DNA of 34,094 nucleotides from Bacteroidota bacterium. GTDB taxonomy: Bacteria; Bacteroidota; Bacteroidia; Bacteroidales; UBA6013. The translations under genes and the position numbers were made by a program. Position 1 is the first letter of the stretch; every line of letters starts with the position of its first letter. This document shows, one piece after another, positions 1 to 13,729 of this stretch. The stretch is from NCBI GenBank assembly GCA_020048645.1, contig JAIFMG010000132.1, positions 1 through 34,094 on the forward strand, read 5' to 3'. The notes under the pieces are model-generated. The model had not been told where the DNA came from. It made no database searches and was given only the letters and a program-made list of their open reading frames with translations.

Positions 1-653
1 ATCCAAGGCACAGAAACACATTCGAAACCTACAAGAATTACAACACATTACAGCCAAATCACATCTTTAAGGAATAGAACAATAAATCATTCCGAAAAAT
101 AATTTAAAATGAATATCCGTAAATATTAACATTCTCTCTGCGTTTACGGTTAATATTGCATTTGCTACTTGAATCTAGGAATGCGCACCTCCTGAAGCCG
201 CGCCAATCCGTCAAAATTCGAACTGGCAGGTTTGAGATGTCCACCAGCCGACTTTGGCCTTGGACATTCGTGGTTTTGACGGGTAGTTGGTTCATCTGGG
301 GTTTGAAATTGACAATAGCCAAAGATACAAACTATGTTTTCGAGAAGCAAATGCCTGGGCGATTTTTTTGAAAGCGCGGGCGAGTCGTGCTTAGAGATGC
401 GTTGAAAAACCGCAAGTATTTGTTTGTCAAGAGGATAGCCTGCCTCTTGTGCGCCTGGGAATCGAAGATCGAGCGGCCCCGGGGCGCTTGGGAGGGGCCG
501 TTCTGCCGATGCGGCAGGGATGGGATGCGAACAGCCTCGGATGGGATTCGGGAATGGGCGAACCCGGGCGGACCAGAACCCTTAGGGGTACAAAGTGGCA
601 AAAGCGCTTGTCCATGAATCCTGAACTTTTGCAGGCAAGTTGGTGGTATGGCT
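1..653. other. AT-rich to GC-rich intergenic stretch, no gene supported
   Basis: I see no convincing coding region here. The first 150 bases are strongly AT-rich and the rest rises to the GC level of the flanking genes. Three simple hairpins lie in a row: 428-434 with 443-449 (7 bp), 474-480 with 494-500 (7 bp) and 503-507 with 513-517 (5 bp). Open frames through this stretch carry no recognisable domain and overlap each other on both strands. No tRNA-like cloverleaf was seen. Confidence 0.6.
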
Positions 654-1604: not shown

Positions 1605-1982
1605 ATGAACATTCCCAAGAATTTGAAGTACACCCAAGACCACGAATGGGTACGGGTGGAAGGCGAAGAAGCCTACGTGGGCATCACCGAATATGCCCAG
1701 GGCGAGCTCGGTGACGTCATCTTCATCGAAATCGAGACCGAGGGCGAAAGCCTTTCCAAGGGCGACACCTTCGGCACCGTCGAGGCCGTGAAGACCGCCT
1801 CCGACCTGTTCATGCCCCTGACGGGCGAGGTGCTCGAGGCCAATCCCATCCTTTCCGAAAAGCCCGAGCTGGTCAACTCCGACCCCTACGGCCAAGGGTG
1901 GATGATCAAGATTTCCGTGGCCAAGGCCGAGGAGCTGGACGGACTGATGGACGCCGAGCAGTACGAGGCGACCATCGCCTGA
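1605..1982 (+). CDS. gcvH: Glycine cleavage system H protein
   Basis: This 125-residue protein is the lipoyl-carrying shuttle of the glycine cleavage system. It accepts the aminomethyl group from the P protein, presents it to the T protein, and is reoxidised by dihydrolipoyl dehydrogenase. The lipoylation lysine is K63 in the hallmark block VEAVKTASDL, and the N-terminal HEWVR and C-terminal GWMIKI stretches are also typical. Length is normal for the family. The gene stands alone: gcvP and gcvT are absent from the window, but lpdA, its likely redox partner, is encoded about 28 kb away on the same strand. A strong terminator follows. Upstream, TAATTTCG (1544-1551) resembles a -7 box, but I found no well-spaced TTG. 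Confidence 0.96.
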   Translation: MNIPKNLKYTQDHEWVRVEGEEAYVGITEYAQGELGDVIFIEIETEGESLSKGDTFGTVEAVKTASDLFMPLTGEVLEANPILSEKPELVNSDPYGQGWMIKISVAKAEELDGLMDAEQYEATIA

Positions 1983-2004
1983 GCCGAGGCCTTCCCTCCA
2001 TGAG

Positions 2005-2043
2005 ACATCCCGCCCTCCCCTTAGGAAGGCGGGATGTTTTTTT
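2005..2043 (+). terminator. Rho-independent terminator of gcvH
   Basis: A perfect 10-bp stem (2005-2014 pairing with 2028-2037) with a 13-base loop runs straight into a seven-T tract (2037-2043), starting 22 bases after the gcvH stop. Confidence 0.85.
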
Positions 2044-9709: not shown

Positions 9710-9907
9710 TGTCGGAGCGTGGTGAAAATAAATATCGCCCGGGCGCTTGCTTTTCCAAGGTATAGTTTGTAAATTTGGATAACGTCAAGTTCACCCTCCC
9801 GATGAGCAGGCTACCTTTCAAAACCGGGGATGTCTCAATTTTAACATCTGATTTTTGGTGTAATTTTTAAGGTGCTATTTTAGAAAAAATATGAAAGCAT
9901 TTTTCAT
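9710..9907 (+). repeat. Repeat A, copy 1 (upstream of the methyltransferase gene)
   Basis: This segment aligns base for base, with scattered differences, to 11015-11209. Shared landmarks are TGTCGGAG at the start, TTGCTTTTCCAAG, ATAGTTTGTA, CCGATGAGCAGGCTACC, GGATGTCTCAATTTTAA and GAAAGCA-TTTTCAT at the end. Stop codons interrupt every frame that is open in copy 2, so it is unlikely to be coding. It ends 28 bases before the methyltransferase start. Confidence 0.85.
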
Positions 9908-9935
9908 TGAACTCTTCAATAATGCGTAACTCAAT

Positions 9936-10787
9936 ATGAAAGCAAAAGACATCTACAAATTTTTGAATCCAAGGTTCCAAAATCTTTTTTTGGAATATAG
10001 GGTGAATTTTAAACCACGTTATGGCAATGGGTTGCCTCCTCATAAAGAATTATACTCAATTATCAATTCGAAAAGAGGCAATTACAAAGACTTATTAGAT
10101 AAGGCATTAGGATACAAAGATGCCATTTGGGAAATAAAAGATTGGAATAAAGAGACTGATGCTCTCAAACCAAGTTGGAATAACGGCTTTATGCCTGGTC
10201 TTGATATGATAGGTATATACACTTTAGTTTCAGAACTTAAACCCAAAAAGTATGTAGAGATTGGTTCTGGAAATTCAACAAAGGTTGCACACAAAGCCAA
10301 AACAGAACAAAATATCGATACACGGATTATATCAATAGACCCGTTGCCAAGGGCAGAAATAGATGAATTAGCCGATAAAATAATCCGAGAGCCTTTTGAG
10401 AATATTAATTACGATATTGTAACTGAATTAGGAGAAAACGATATATTGTTTGTAGATAACTCACACAGAATATTACCCAATTCTGATTCAATGGTTTTTT
10501 ATCTTGAAATATTACCAAGACTAAAAAAAGGAGTAGTTGTGCACATACATGATATTTACTTGCCTTACGACTATCCCCAATTCATGTGCGATCGATTTTA
10601 TTCTGAACAATATGGATTAGCGATGTATTTGCTTGCAAATAGTAATAAATACCAACCATTGTTACCGAACTATTTCGTTTTTGAAGACACGGAGCTTAGC
10701 AAACAAATTAAACCTATATGGAAACACTCTAACATGAAAAATGTTGAACGGCATGGTGGTTCATTTTGGCTAAGAATTAATGAATGA
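9936..10787 (+). CDS. Class I SAM-dependent methyltransferase, laterally acquired
   Basis: This 283-residue protein contains a Rossmann-fold methyltransferase core: motif I is YVEIGSGNSTKVA (about residues 105-118), an acidic strand end in RIISIDPLP follows, and motif IV is NDILFVDNSHR with a downstream VVHIHDIY block. This pattern is like the Methyltransf_24-type enzymes often found with glycan or natural-product genes. The substrate cannot be told and no biosynthetic neighbours are present. The gene is strongly AT-rich with A/T-ending codons, unlike the GC-rich genes on either side, which suggests horizontal acquisition. It lies alone between repeat A copy 1 and repeat B copy 1, which begins about 6 bases after its stop. 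No canonical promoter was identified; it could be read from sequence inside repeat A. Confidence 0.85.
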   Translation: MKAKDIYKFLNPRFQNLFLEYRVNFKPRYGNGLPPHKELYSIINSKRGNYKDLLDKALGYKDAIWEIKDWNKETDALKPSWNNGFMPGLDMIGIYTLVSELKPKKYVEIGSGNSTKVAHKAKTEQNIDTRIISIDPLPRAEIDELADKIIREPFENINYDIVTELGENDILFVDNSHRILPNSDSMVFYLEILPRLKKGVVVHIHDIYLPYDYPQFMCDRFYSEQYGLAMYLLANSNKYQPLLPNYFVFEDTELSKQIKPIWKHSNMKNVERHGGSFWLRINE

Positions 10788-10792
10788 ATAGA

Positions 10793-11012
10793 GCAGTGCC
10801 TGCTAAAAAAAACGCAATCTGCTCAATTACAGCAAATTAAGTCCTTTTTTCTTTGGCCAATTACAAGGTTTTTGATATTTGGACCTCAAAAACTTGCGAT
10901 TGTGTTCAGTAAAATAATTGAATGTCTTCCTTTTTCCCATCGGAGGTCAAGCCTGGCTTGCGGATTCACCTTGCGCAAGCCTCTTCCTGCACAACCGATG
11001 GGGAGTATCGCA
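10793..11012 (+). repeat. Repeat B, copy 1 (most diverged)
   Basis: This segment aligns to 12143-12353 and 13508-13729. Conserved stretches include GCTCAATTAC, TTCTTTGGCCAA, GTTTTTGA, CAAGCCTGGCTTGCGGAT and GCAAGCCTCTTCCTGCACAA. The middle has drifted toward A/T compared with the other two copies. It begins right after the methyltransferase stop and runs directly into repeat A copy 2, so A and B form a composite here. Confidence 0.8.
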
Positions 11013-11014
11013 CC

Positions 11015-11209
11015 TGTCGGAGGCTTGTGGAAAAATTTCGCCCAAGCATTTGCTTTTCCAAGATATAGTTTGTAGCTTTGAATATCGTCAATTACCCCCC
11101 CCCCCGATGAGCAGGCTACCCTCCAAAACTGCGGATGTCTCAATTTTAAAACCTAATTTTGGGTTAATTTTTCAGGTGATCGTTCAAAAAAATTGAAAGC
11201 AATTTTCAT
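11015..11209 (+). repeat. Repeat A, copy 2
   Basis: This is the second copy of the repeat at 9710-9907, with the same landmarks in the same order. It differs by an uninterrupted run of 11 C residues (11095-11105) where copy 1 has ACCCTCCCGATG. Together, the two A copies bracket the methyltransferase gene and repeat B copy 1 as direct repeats. Confidence 0.85.
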
Positions 11210-11212
11210 GGC

Positions 11213-11243
11213 CTTTCACTAACAATTACTTTGTTAGTGAAAG
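11213..11243. repeat. Perfect 13-bp inverted repeat at the end of repeat A copy 2
   Basis: CTTTCACTAACAA (11213-11225) pairs perfectly with 11231-11243 around a five-base loop. There is no T-tract on the plus strand. It sits four bases past the end of repeat A, exactly where the next gene unit begins, so it could be a recombination site remnant, an element terminus or a weak terminator. Confidence 0.75.
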
Positions 11244-11366
11244 TTGGTTAGAGTTGTCGGAGAGTCCGTTCAAAGACACGCAATTAAAACTGATACTGAT
11301 GAAAATATTCTTGCGGATGAATTACTTATACACATGTTAAAGATTGATATTGCGAATTTGAATTAA
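11241..11366 (+). pseudogene. Possible truncated 3' end of an unknown gene
   Basis: A frame open from the hairpin to a TAA at 11364-11366 (41 codons) reads KLVRVVGESVQRHAIK and ends in HMLKIDIANLN, with a protein-like mix of charged and hydrophobic residues. It has no start in a sensible place and begins at the repeat boundary, so it may be the surviving C-terminus of a gene cut by recombination. I do not recognise the family and coding status is uncertain. Confidence 0.22.
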
Positions 11367-11388
11367 AATTGACCTCACAATTGAAACC

Positions 11389-11589
11389 ATGGAAGACTCA
11401 AAAATAGACAGAACATTTGTTAGGAAGGGTAAAATCAAAGAACAAGGCAATGATTTTTTATTTTGGCAATCTCAACCCTATATTGTACGGTTGCAAACAA
11501 TAGAACAAATCAGATTAGAATTTAATACTTGGCAATATGGTACTGAACAAGGATTTCAAAGAGTTTATTCAATTGTTAAACGTAAATAA
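11389..11589 (+). CDS. Small protein overlapping a nucleotidyltransferase gene
   Basis: This 66-residue basic protein has a central block reading LQTIEQIRLEFNTWQYG, followed by GFQRVYSIVKRK. From memory, small proteins with this EQIR...W-x-YG...FQRVY-I-KR pattern commonly precede nucleotidyltransferase genes in Bacteroidota and other phyla, so I take it as the conserved partner of the gene starting at 11537. The two reading frames overlap by 53 bases, a sign of translational coupling. A toxin-antitoxin-like arrangement (an antitoxin or accessory protein with a nucleotidyltransferase) is possible but not shown. Because its partner is broken, this gene may be a leftover. Confidence 0.6.
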   Translation: MEDSKIDRTFVRKGKIKEQGNDFLFWQSQPYIVRLQTIEQIRLEFNTWQYGTEQGFQRVYSIVKRK

Positions 11590-11983
11590 CGTCAAATATT
11601 TAATTATTGGCGGGTATGCTGTTGGCTTTCATGGTTATCCGTGATATACCAAAGATTTGGATATCTGGTTATTGGTTTCTGATGAAAACGCTGAAAATGT
11701 AATGAACGCATTAAAACAATTTGGATTTGGCAGCATTGGATTGCATAAAACAGATTTTCTGAAACACGATGAATTTGTGCAATTAGGTTATCCACCCAAT
11801 AGGATTGATTTGATAACATCCTGTGACGGAGTAGAGTTTAAAGAGTGCTACAATAGCAAATTAGAAGTTGAAGTTGATGATATAGTAATCAATTTCATTG
11901 ACCTAGAAAACTTGCGGAAAAATAAAAAGGCATCAGGTCGTCCACAAGATATGGCAGATTTGGATAACCTAAAAGCGAAATAG
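11537..11983 (+). pseudogene. Nucleotidyltransferase gene interrupted by an in-frame stop
   Basis: Reading from the ATG at 11537 gives MVLNKDFKEFIQLL, then VKYLIIGGYAVGFHGYP, then a TGA (11642-11644), then YTKDLDIWLLVSDENAE in the same frame, continuing to a TAA at 11981-11983. This is the usual small minimal-nucleotidyltransferase layout (GG-x-A, then the D-x-D metal site in DLDIW), about 148 residues if the stop is ignored. In relatives I know, the stop position is normally an arginine (PRYT), so CGA-to-TGA is the simplest change. The stop lies before the catalytic aspartates, so the first fragment would be inactive. Restart at an alternative codon such as TTG 11657 would lose the GG motif. 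The start overlaps the small gene at 11389-11589. Confidence 0.8.
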
Positions 11984-12142
11984 CAAGTAACTGACTGAAA
12001 AACAACAAGTTACTAACACCAAGCATACCAACAATGCCTGCCTGCTTTTTGCCCGACGCACAAAGCCACCGCAAGCAAACAGCGGGCTTGCACGGCGGAT
12101 GTTTGTTTCCGTTTTTATGCAGACGCATCAAGTAGAAATCAA
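11984..12142. other. Spacer with two inverted repeats after the nucleotidyltransferase pseudogene
   Basis: No gene is seen. AGTAACT (11986-11992) pairs with AGTTACT (12008-12014), and GCAAGC (12071-12076) pairs with GCTTGC (12086-12091). The segment leads into repeat B copy 2. It could hold an attC-like folded site or a terminator, but neither can be shown by eye. Confidence 0.4.
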
Positions 12143-12353
12143 TCAGGGTCTGCCGAAAAACCTGCAATCGCCTCAATTACAAGAAGTTAAACTCATCTTC
12201 TTTGGCCAAACGCAAAGTTTTGAGCAGCTTAGACCTCGAAACCTCGCGCTTGTGTTCGGAAGGACGACCGCTTGACTTCCTTCTGAACATCGGCGGTAAA
12301 GCCTGGCTCGAGGATCCGCCTAACGCAAGCCTCGTTCCTGTGCAACGCTTGGG
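12143..12353 (+). repeat. Repeat B, copy 2 (upstream of the Rpn gene)
   Basis: Aligns with 13508-13729 over its whole length. The core from AGTTTTGAGCAGCTT (12226) through CTTCTGAACATCGG (about 12295) is nearly identical, with about three differences in 70 bases. On the minus strand both copies keep an open frame reading FRRKSSGRPSEHKREVS then SKLLKTL, so the repeat may derive from the end of a coding element. Confidence 0.88.
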
Positions 12354-12426
12354 CAGAGCCTGGGTGTGACGTGCGAAATTGACCCGATAAAAATGAAGAC
12401 AAGGATGGGAAAATTTGAAAATTTCA

Positions 12427-12434
12427 TAAATTTG
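12427..12434 (+). promoter_or_regulatory. Possible -7 box for the Rpn gene
   Basis: TAAATTTG matches the Bacteroidota -7 pattern TAnnTTTG exactly and lies 25 bases before the ATG at 12460. No TTG occurs at the 18-20 base spacing, so the promoter is only half supported. Confidence 0.35.
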
Positions 12435-12459
12435 CATCATAAACTCAAATGAAACAGGA

Positions 12460-13488
12460 ATGAAGAAGACGGAACAACACATGAACGAAAATGATTACAT
12501 CATCATACCGAATCCGATTTATGATGTGGTTTTTAGGTATTTGATGGAAGACCCAGACAGTGCGATGATTGTGATTTCGACATTGATAAACGAAAAAATA
12601 AAGAAATTGCATCTTGAACCAATAACTCATTCCGAAAAAAATGAAAATTGGACAAAGATAGAGATTCAAGACCCTAAAACAAAGGACGATATTTTTTTGT
12701 TCCATCTTGATTTTACAGCCATCATCGAATTGCCTGACGGATCGGAAGAAATGATAATGATAGAATTGCAAAAGGCAAGCGAGCCGGATGATATCTTTAG
12801 GTTCAAACGGTACATCAGCAAAAATTTCCAAAGAAAGCAGGAAAAGGAAATCACAGACCCCAAAACACAAGCCATAGAAACCGTAAAAAAACCCATCCGG
12901 CTAATACCGATTTTTATACTCAATTTTAGGATTGAAAACGAAATTAATGATTTGTTGATCAAGACGAATAGAACAAAAACGGGGATTTATAAAAATAAAA
13001 ATCTACAAAAGCACAACGAATTCATTGACAATTTGAGCTATGACATCTGGGTGGTCCAGTTGCCCAACCTGCATCATGTTGTTGAAGATGATTACAAAGA
13101 CGATGACTACAAGCGCAAATTATACACGCTGTTAAAATTATTCGACCAGAAATCGATAGTGAAAAACAACGAACACAGGTTAAGAATAATCCGAAAGTTT
13201 TTCCCCGGATTTTTAGACCGCGTAATAAAAAGGATACAAGCCGCATCAATCGATAATCCAAACTTGGAAGAACAAATGTTTGCCGAAGATGAATATTTGA
13301 AAACGCTGATAAAAAGAGACAACAGGATTACATATTTAGAAGGCGAACTAGACAAAAAAGACAAAGCCTTGGAAGATAAAGACAAAGTGATAATTGAATT
13401 CGCAAAATCATTAAAAGAAAATGGTGTCCCAATTGATGTAATCCATAAAAAAACCGGATTGCGAATTGATGCGATTGAACGGTTGTAA
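12460..13488 (+). CDS. Rpn family recombination-promoting nuclease / PD-(D/E)XK putative transposase
   Basis: This 342-residue protein matches the Rpn/PD-(D/E)XK nuclease-family transposase group, whose studied E. coli relatives are DNA endonucleases that raise RecA-independent recombination. The N-terminal block IPNPIYDVVFRYLMEDPDSA is diagnostic. The nuclease core shows FHLDFTAIIELPDGSEEM and then IELQKA (about residues 84-112), giving the D...E-x-Q/K catalytic pattern, followed by FKRYISKNFQ. The C-terminal third is charged and probably coiled (LDKKDKALEDKDKVIIEF) and ends in an HTH-like stretch (VIHKKTGLRIDAIERL). It is AT-rich. ATG 12460 or 12481 could be the start. Repeat B copies 2 and 3 flank it as direct repeats, consistent with a mobile unit. 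The reading frame is intact. Confidence 0.88.
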   Translation: MKKTEQHMNENDYIIIPNPIYDVVFRYLMEDPDSAMIVISTLINEKIKKLHLEPITHSEKNENWTKIEIQDPKTKDDIFLFHLDFTAIIELPDGSEEMIMIELQKASEPDDIFRFKRYISKNFQRKQEKEITDPKTQAIETVKKPIRLIPIFILNFRIENEINDLLIKTNRTKTGIYKNKNLQKHNEFIDNLSYDIWVVQLPNLHHVVEDDYKDDDYKRKLYTLLKLFDQKSIVKNNEHRLRIIRKFFPGFLDRVIKRIQAASIDNPNLEEQMFAEDEYLKTLIKRDNRITYLEGELDKKDKALEDKDKVIIEFAKSLKENGVPIDVIHKKTGLRIDAIERL

Positions 13489-13507
13489 ACAGATGACAAA
13501 AAGATGC

Positions 13508-13729
13508 TCAGGGTCTGTTGGAAAACCTGCAAACATCTTAATTCCAATAAGTTGACTCTACCTTCTTTGGCCAAGCCCAAAGTTTTGAGCAGCTTGGACT
13601 TCGAAACCTCGCGCTTGTGTTCGGAAGGACGACCGCTTGACTTCCTTCTGAACATCGGTGGTTCAAGCCTGGACTGCGGATCCACCTTGTGCAAGCCTCT
13701 TCCTGCACAACGCTTGGGGAGTACCGCAC
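13508..13729 (+). repeat. Repeat B, copy 3 (right edge of the island)
   Basis: The third copy begins 19 bases after the Rpn stop and ends 26 bases before the 3' end of tamB. It shares the near-identical core with copy 2 and the 3' part (CAAGCCTCTTCCTGCACAA, GGGGAGTA-CGCAC) with copy 1. It contains a 7-bp inverted repeat TTGTGCA/TGCACAA near its 3' end that is not conserved in the other copies. Confidence 0.88.

Follow-up and report, generated by a model that had tools for sequence, protein, structure and literature searches.

The question raised by the 34,094-nt contig analysed here (the window, at its full length), which comes from a Bacteroidota metagenome-assembled genome (MAG; 242 contigs, 4.81 Mb, 92% complete), is whether a short run of AT-rich genes set between recurring repeats was assembled by an integron-like system. 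A first-pass annotation had described three units separated by two repeats, A and B, in the order A1, methyltransferase, B1, A2, small open reading frame (ORF) with nucleotidyltransferase, B2, Rpn nuclease, B3, all on the plus strand, and had suggested either integron-like cassettes or movement of units by way of shared repeats, with the recurring B copies behind the genes as the hallmark. The AT-rich island, its order and its orientation are as described, and both repeats are real, with A in the two copies and B in the three copies named. The cassette idea is well supported at the level of the genome, where the layout is tied to A, and fails for B. The informative repeat is A, as the left part of the platform: we consider it likely that A forms the conserved 5′ (left) segment in a family of ISL3-type transposons, non-autonomous and with an integron-like platform on board, which number about 100 copies and are loaded with cassettes. 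The ISL3-like transposon around the platform had been missed, as had a third A copy in the window, A0.

Repeat A and the cassettes behind it

Repeat A is a dispersed family. A sequence-only model of 228 positions has 107 matches in the MAG at E<=1e-5, fragments included, and the repeat recurs across the genome; a DNA search returned at least 40 matches, and a 25-mer core matched 61 times compared with 0 for the reversed control pattern. Run on 294 further genomes from the same order, the model had 0 matches, and searches of G007 and other relatives did not turn up A either. An exact 22-base pattern from A was absent from GTDB r220 contigs and IMG/VR, and A was not found in plasmids, all of these being collections from which near relatives may be missing. 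Core identity among the copies has a median of 0.71 (range 0.45-0.94). In 0.81 Mb of MAG contigs, 81 copies were found. Intact copies nearly always form the left border of an AT-rich insert, set in DNA of about 63% GC: upstream DNA is mostly of native GC content, and downstream DNA is below 42% GC in 68 of the 74 copies with enough sequence, compared with 16% of random windows. Tandem A-gene-A-gene units also occur.

The consensus of A includes ...GCgCTTGnTTTTccAAngtanAGTtTGTAtcTTTGG..., which fits the Bacteroidota sigma-ABfr promoter motif TTTG/TAnnTTTG (PMC7366714), and the arrangement TTG-N20-TAtcTTTG is conserved and points at the cargo. By this pattern A carries a putative Pc-type promoter facing the cassettes. 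In the window, the A1 version has TTG at 9747-9749, 20 nt and then TAAATTTG at 9770-9777, and the A2 version has TTG at 11050-11052, 20 nt and then TAGCTTTG at 11073-11080. Over the approximately 200 bp past the promoter, codon-position variation is flat (0.12/0.16/0.13), and A as a leader-peptide gene was rejected because this shows no coding constraint. At its right end A stops abruptly, with the consensus ...GGTGGAAGTAATGAC|GTTR (i.e., ...AATGAC|GTTRnnnn); conservation drops from about 0.8 to about 0.45, and a GTTRnnnnYAAT pattern follows. This abrupt boundary, together with the R′/R′′ pairing described below, suggests that the right end of A is an attI-like site with a G|TTRRRY crossover.

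Because hairpin scans are strand-symmetric, we took the pairing of an upstream R′ with a downstream R′′, plus a hairpin score, as the test for attC; complementarity of R′′ and R′ within a site was also tried and set aside as unsuited to integrated arrays. In 4 of 32 A copies, where 0.10 would be expected, the 10 nt starting at the G of GTTR return further downstream as a perfect reverse complement, and a combined pairing-plus-hairpin score of at least 20 is reached by 6 of 54 copies (0.6 expected). Six attC-like sites (L040, L039, L049, L072, L069 and L106) are 97-139 bp long and do not align with one another, and each lies between consecutive same-strand genes. The bottom strand of the L040 site folds at -44 kcal/mol (z=-7.9 with a fold tool), and a separate scripted fold gave z values for the six from -1.2 (L106, the weakest) to -3.7. 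In these six inserts, cassettes behind A end at their 3′ side in attC sites with R′′/R′ boxes and a bottom-strand hairpin. An array usually has one clear site in the sequence examined, in addition to the conserved 5′ segment. The cargo behind A is AT-rich and co-oriented: 108 of its 119 ORFs are sense and 11 antisense, and the first ORF, which starts a median of 311 nt past the A anchor, is sense in 61 of 65 cases. By family matches only, the cargo includes type IIG/MmeI/ISP/Eco57I methylases, AAA/Old/Abi/PtuA-like ATPases, HEPN proteins, nucleotidyltransferases and Rpn-like nucleases, and it is rich in defence-like families.

ISL3-type ends and the 3′ segment

To the left of A there is an ISL3-type terminus, GGTTCTTTATAAGAGTGTGTGGGTAGCGC..., at a distance of 123-126 bp in 15 copies and of no more than 400 bp in a further 9, and the terminal repeats are about 68 bp long in many copies. 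Beyond the cargo, an inverted copy of this A-side terminus is present in five inserts (L106, L108, L109, L113 and L119). Between the last attC and the right terminus is a 3′ segment that starts at R′ GTTATCGCC, reads GTTATCGCCAG...CCACAGCAGGATTCC... and holds a remnant of the C-terminal part of an ISL3 transposase along with the terminal inverted repeat. This segment has 24 copies in the genome, and those that reach the 5′ end mostly begin at the G of R′; in 9 of 23 cases a strong attC-like hairpin stands directly before it, compared with 0.47 expected. In one case, L113:2506-4919, both ends are present and AAAAATG(G) borders the element on each side, a candidate target duplication of 7-8 bp, where 8 bp is the length expected for the ISL3 family. 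Elsewhere, at L104 6851/6856, two ISL3-type termini sit back to back with a gap of about 5 bp and point away from each other. The ends of several contigs (L040, L042, L050, L054, L064, L065 and others) fall into several families of identical ends of approximately 85-90 bp inside AT-rich inserts; these are probably other insertion sequences (IS) that broke the assembly.

A typical element would thus run from a terminal inverted repeat through an inward promoter, an attI-like site (...AATGAC|GTT) and one to several attC cassettes to the 3′ segment, which starts at its R′ and contains the ISL3 transposase remnant, and then to the inverted terminal repeat. We infer that circular cassettes would be inserted by an integron-type tyrosine recombinase, with the attI-like site crossed at its G|TT, and that an ISL3-family transposase acting in trans would have carried the platforms to some 100 positions, the latter because of the shared inverted repeats and the one element with a candidate target duplication. 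Each platform copy would set its first gene beside a Bacteroidota promoter, which may be active.

The window locus and repeat B

Table 1. Features of the window locus and of the additional A copy near the contig start
Feature	Position	Strand	Remarks
Repeat A0, third A copy	171..427	-	faces contig start; A-model/core match 171-371
Repeat A1	9723..9871	+	platform left part, truncated; model match 7-113 of 228
Cargo gene 1, methyltransferase (Methyltransf_24)	9936..10787	+	PF13578, E=4.4e-9
Repeat B1, composite	10793..11013	+	left ~140 bp IS-end-like; right ~90 bp a separate dispersed repeat
Repeat A2	11033..11175	+	truncated platform copy; model match 7-114 of 228
Small ORF, cargo unit 2	11389..11589	+	66 aa; no Pfam match
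Nucleotidyltransferase-like ORF, 3′ part	11657..11983	+	no Pfam match; nucleotidyltransferase reading by eye
Weak attC candidate after the nucleotidyltransferase	12009..12117	+	possibly decayed; R′′ GTTACTAAC ... R′ GTTTTTA
Repeat B2	12143..12363	+	
Cargo gene 3, Rpn-like nuclease	12460..13488	+	weak family match: TIGR01784, E=5.7e-6, 26 bits, cutoff of 52 not reached
Repeat B3	13508..13729	+	native GC-rich DNA next

In the window, which also encodes GldN (PF19841), GC content is 32-46% from about 9.75 to 13.5 kb compared with 55-73% on both sides. Known RNA families were found neither in the window nor in four other loci. A1 (9730-9871) and A2 (11033-11175) are 82% identical over 143 bp; the B pairs range from 71% (B1/B2, over 204 bp) and 76% (B1/B3, over 167 bp) to 85% (B2/B3), and B1 and B3 begin 6 and 19 nt past the preceding stop codons, as the first-pass annotation had it. 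A1 and A2 cover only model positions 7-114 of 228, and so the attI end is gone from both. The nucleotidyltransferase frame is interrupted by a TGA at about 11642 (GYP*YTKDLDIW) and is open only in the 3′ part listed in Table 1. The attC candidate behind it has a hairpin score of 12, equalled by 0 of 40 shuffles, and the fold of the whole region around it is no better than shuffles. The A0 insert is cut at position 1 by an IS-like end. With the attI end of A1 and A2 lost and one weak attC candidate, the window locus alone is no proof of cassette capture. It is probably a decayed derivative, with A1 and A2 cut before attI and IS-like remnants, the B repeats, behind the genes.

Repeat B is a composite of a left part of about 140 bp and a right part of about 90 bp, each of which occurs separately elsewhere. 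The left part starts GGGTCTGCTGAAAA, has a minus-strand coding-like end and is present in five identical copies at contig ends (C216, C200, C39, C242 and C31); it looks like the end of a separate IS, the complete form of which is not in the assembly. Older copies of it form the right edge of inserts at L058 and L039, oriented with the cargo as in the window, and an attC-like hairpin that beats shuffles precedes only 2 of 10 copies. We therefore rejected B as attC, and with it the idea that recurring B copies mark cassettes, because B has no general attC structure (R′′/L′′/L′/R′ hairpin) and its left half is IS-like. The right part is a dispersed repeat with a small hairpin (TTGTGCA...TGCACAA), often beside AT-rich DNA, and was found at L062, L073, L074, L075 and L076 as well as in the right halves of B1-B3. 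On C129, at 13716 and 15160, an AT-rich gene lies between two direct copies of the left part in a layout like that of the Rpn gene and B3; the stretch read there contains no A.

Enzymes, alternatives and known systems

The first-pass annotation noted that the window holds no integrase, and this extends to the 92%-complete MAG, in which no integron integrase exceeds the cutoff (TIGR02249) and no intact one was found. The PF00589 matches in the MAG are only a 313-aa recombinase (C43), a second Xer-like recombinase (C78) and a fragment (C114); we read the two Xer-like recombinases as XerC (next to PEPCK) and XerD. Within the order, 4 of 295 genomes have an integron integrase over the cutoff, and the loci in these relatives have no clear cassette array nearby. 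Two A copies, L046 (C114, A at 1886-2038, minus strand) and L043 (C233, A at 703-834), contain a tyrosine recombinase C-terminal fragment at the same place within A. It runs in the cargo direction, its best NCBIfam match is NF040815 and its best PDB match is IntI4 (2a3v, E=6e-17); it may be a relic of the platform's own integrase. Its neighbours in genome contigs are generic tyrosine recombinases of at most 73% identity and are uninformative.

The missing integrase weighs against a cassette-loaded platform, as do several other results. The ISL3 transposase domain PF01610 has 19 partial matches in the MAG, mostly to the C-terminal part and none full length, and of the 81 A copies no more than about 24 have an ISL3 terminus within 400 bp. 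A recognisable attC is missing from most inserts, both main A copies of the window lack the attI end, and no direct junction of A with the 3′ segment was found in the sequence examined. Contigs break where IS-like copies interrupt the inserts, and for this reason a single element could be followed from end to end. Finally, the attI role proposed for the right end of A is read from sequence, namely the abrupt boundary and the R′/R′′ pairing.

Could A be an ordinary MITE-like repeat (MITE, miniature inverted-repeat transposable element) with an outward promoter that inserts beside AT-rich acquired genes, the attC sites coming from unrelated integrase-less cassettes? The common ISL3 terminus and the transposase remnants do make A elements MITE-like, clear attC sites are present only in a minority of inserts, and cassette integration at genomic attG sites is known (PMC12901181). 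We nevertheless find this explanation improbable, since A is conserved only up to its G|TTR core, pairing between the R′ behind A and the R′′ of the first attC is well over control, and the 3′ segment starts at R′ behind attC-like hairpins, and proximity insertion would not give two crossover-precise boundaries. Less remote, though still unlikely, is that homologous recombination at the 5′ and 3′ repeats has swapped cargo from one A copy to another, no integrase being active now and the integron features being ancestral. This would fit the lack of an integrase in the assembly, the tandem A-gene-A-gene units and the recombinase fragments that the A copies of C114 and C233 contain, which resemble decay, but a median A identity of just 71% is poor for frequent exchange, and the diverse attC sites and private R′ boxes fit site-specific capture. 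Homologous exchange may operate alongside such capture.

For the window alone, opinion is evenly balanced on whether remnants of IS and platform, now decayed, simply link three unrelated foreign genes, and cassettes never moved at this site. The truncation of A1 and A2, the IS-like left part of B, the broken nucleotidyltransferase frame and the single weak attC candidate all point that way; the order of A promoter segment, gene and B is found twice, however, and so some duplication or replacement of units is needed. Such a history is compatible with A being the left segment of a cassette-loaded platform in the genome at large.

The closest known arrangement is that of class 1 integrons, with 5′ and 3′ conserved segments (5′-CS and 3′-CS) around cassettes in Tn402-like transposons, and the platform reading of A shares with them a promoter platform, a G|TTRRRY attI-like site, attC cassettes, fixed 5′ and 3′ segments and transposon ends. 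Here, in contrast, there is no intI in the element or the assembly, the ends are ISL3-type and not Tn402, there are about 100 dispersed copies per genome, and the cargo is defence-like and not resistance. MITE-flanked class 1 integrons, or integron mobilization units (PMC3934969), likewise have non-autonomous terminal repeats that mobilise an integron platform, but as a single integron with intI1 between two MITE copies, whereas here the platform family itself is MITE-like and amplified. Clusters of attC sites lacking integron integrases (CALIN; IntegronFinder, PMC9024848) also hold attC cassettes without an integrase, but they are defined by attC alone (at least two, with no integrase nearby), while a conserved promoter/attI-like segment stands at the head of each array here. 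Sedentary chromosomal integrons acting as defence biobanks (Darracq 2025, Kieffer 2025; reviewed in PMC12409362) also keep anti-phage genes in attC cassettes, in one long array per genome in which position 1 is expressed highest, unlike the many short arrays here, each of which has a promoter-proximal slot to itself. Reports of complete integrons in Bacteroidota are rare (PMC9024848), and our searches of open-licence papers found no report of about 100 dispersed platforms in one genome.

Chromosomal integrons store defence genes, and expression peaks only near their single promoter (PMC12409362). If the platform is read correctly, the cell would have many ports for gene capture where one is usual, and multiplying the platform rather than lengthening the array would be a different solution to the single-promoter limit. 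Whether the whole works as a parallel integron, with about 100 transposon-spread attI/Pc platforms served by one integrase in trans and many defence cassettes in the expressed first position, is a proposal to which we give about an even chance. A platform multiplied in this way would be a natural experiment for how attI works, for how cassettes are expressed and for the partnership of transposon and integron in Bacteroidota. Cassette capture can be traced from its repeats without a nearby integrase, and repeat A can serve as a marker for listing candidate defence genes in this lineage.

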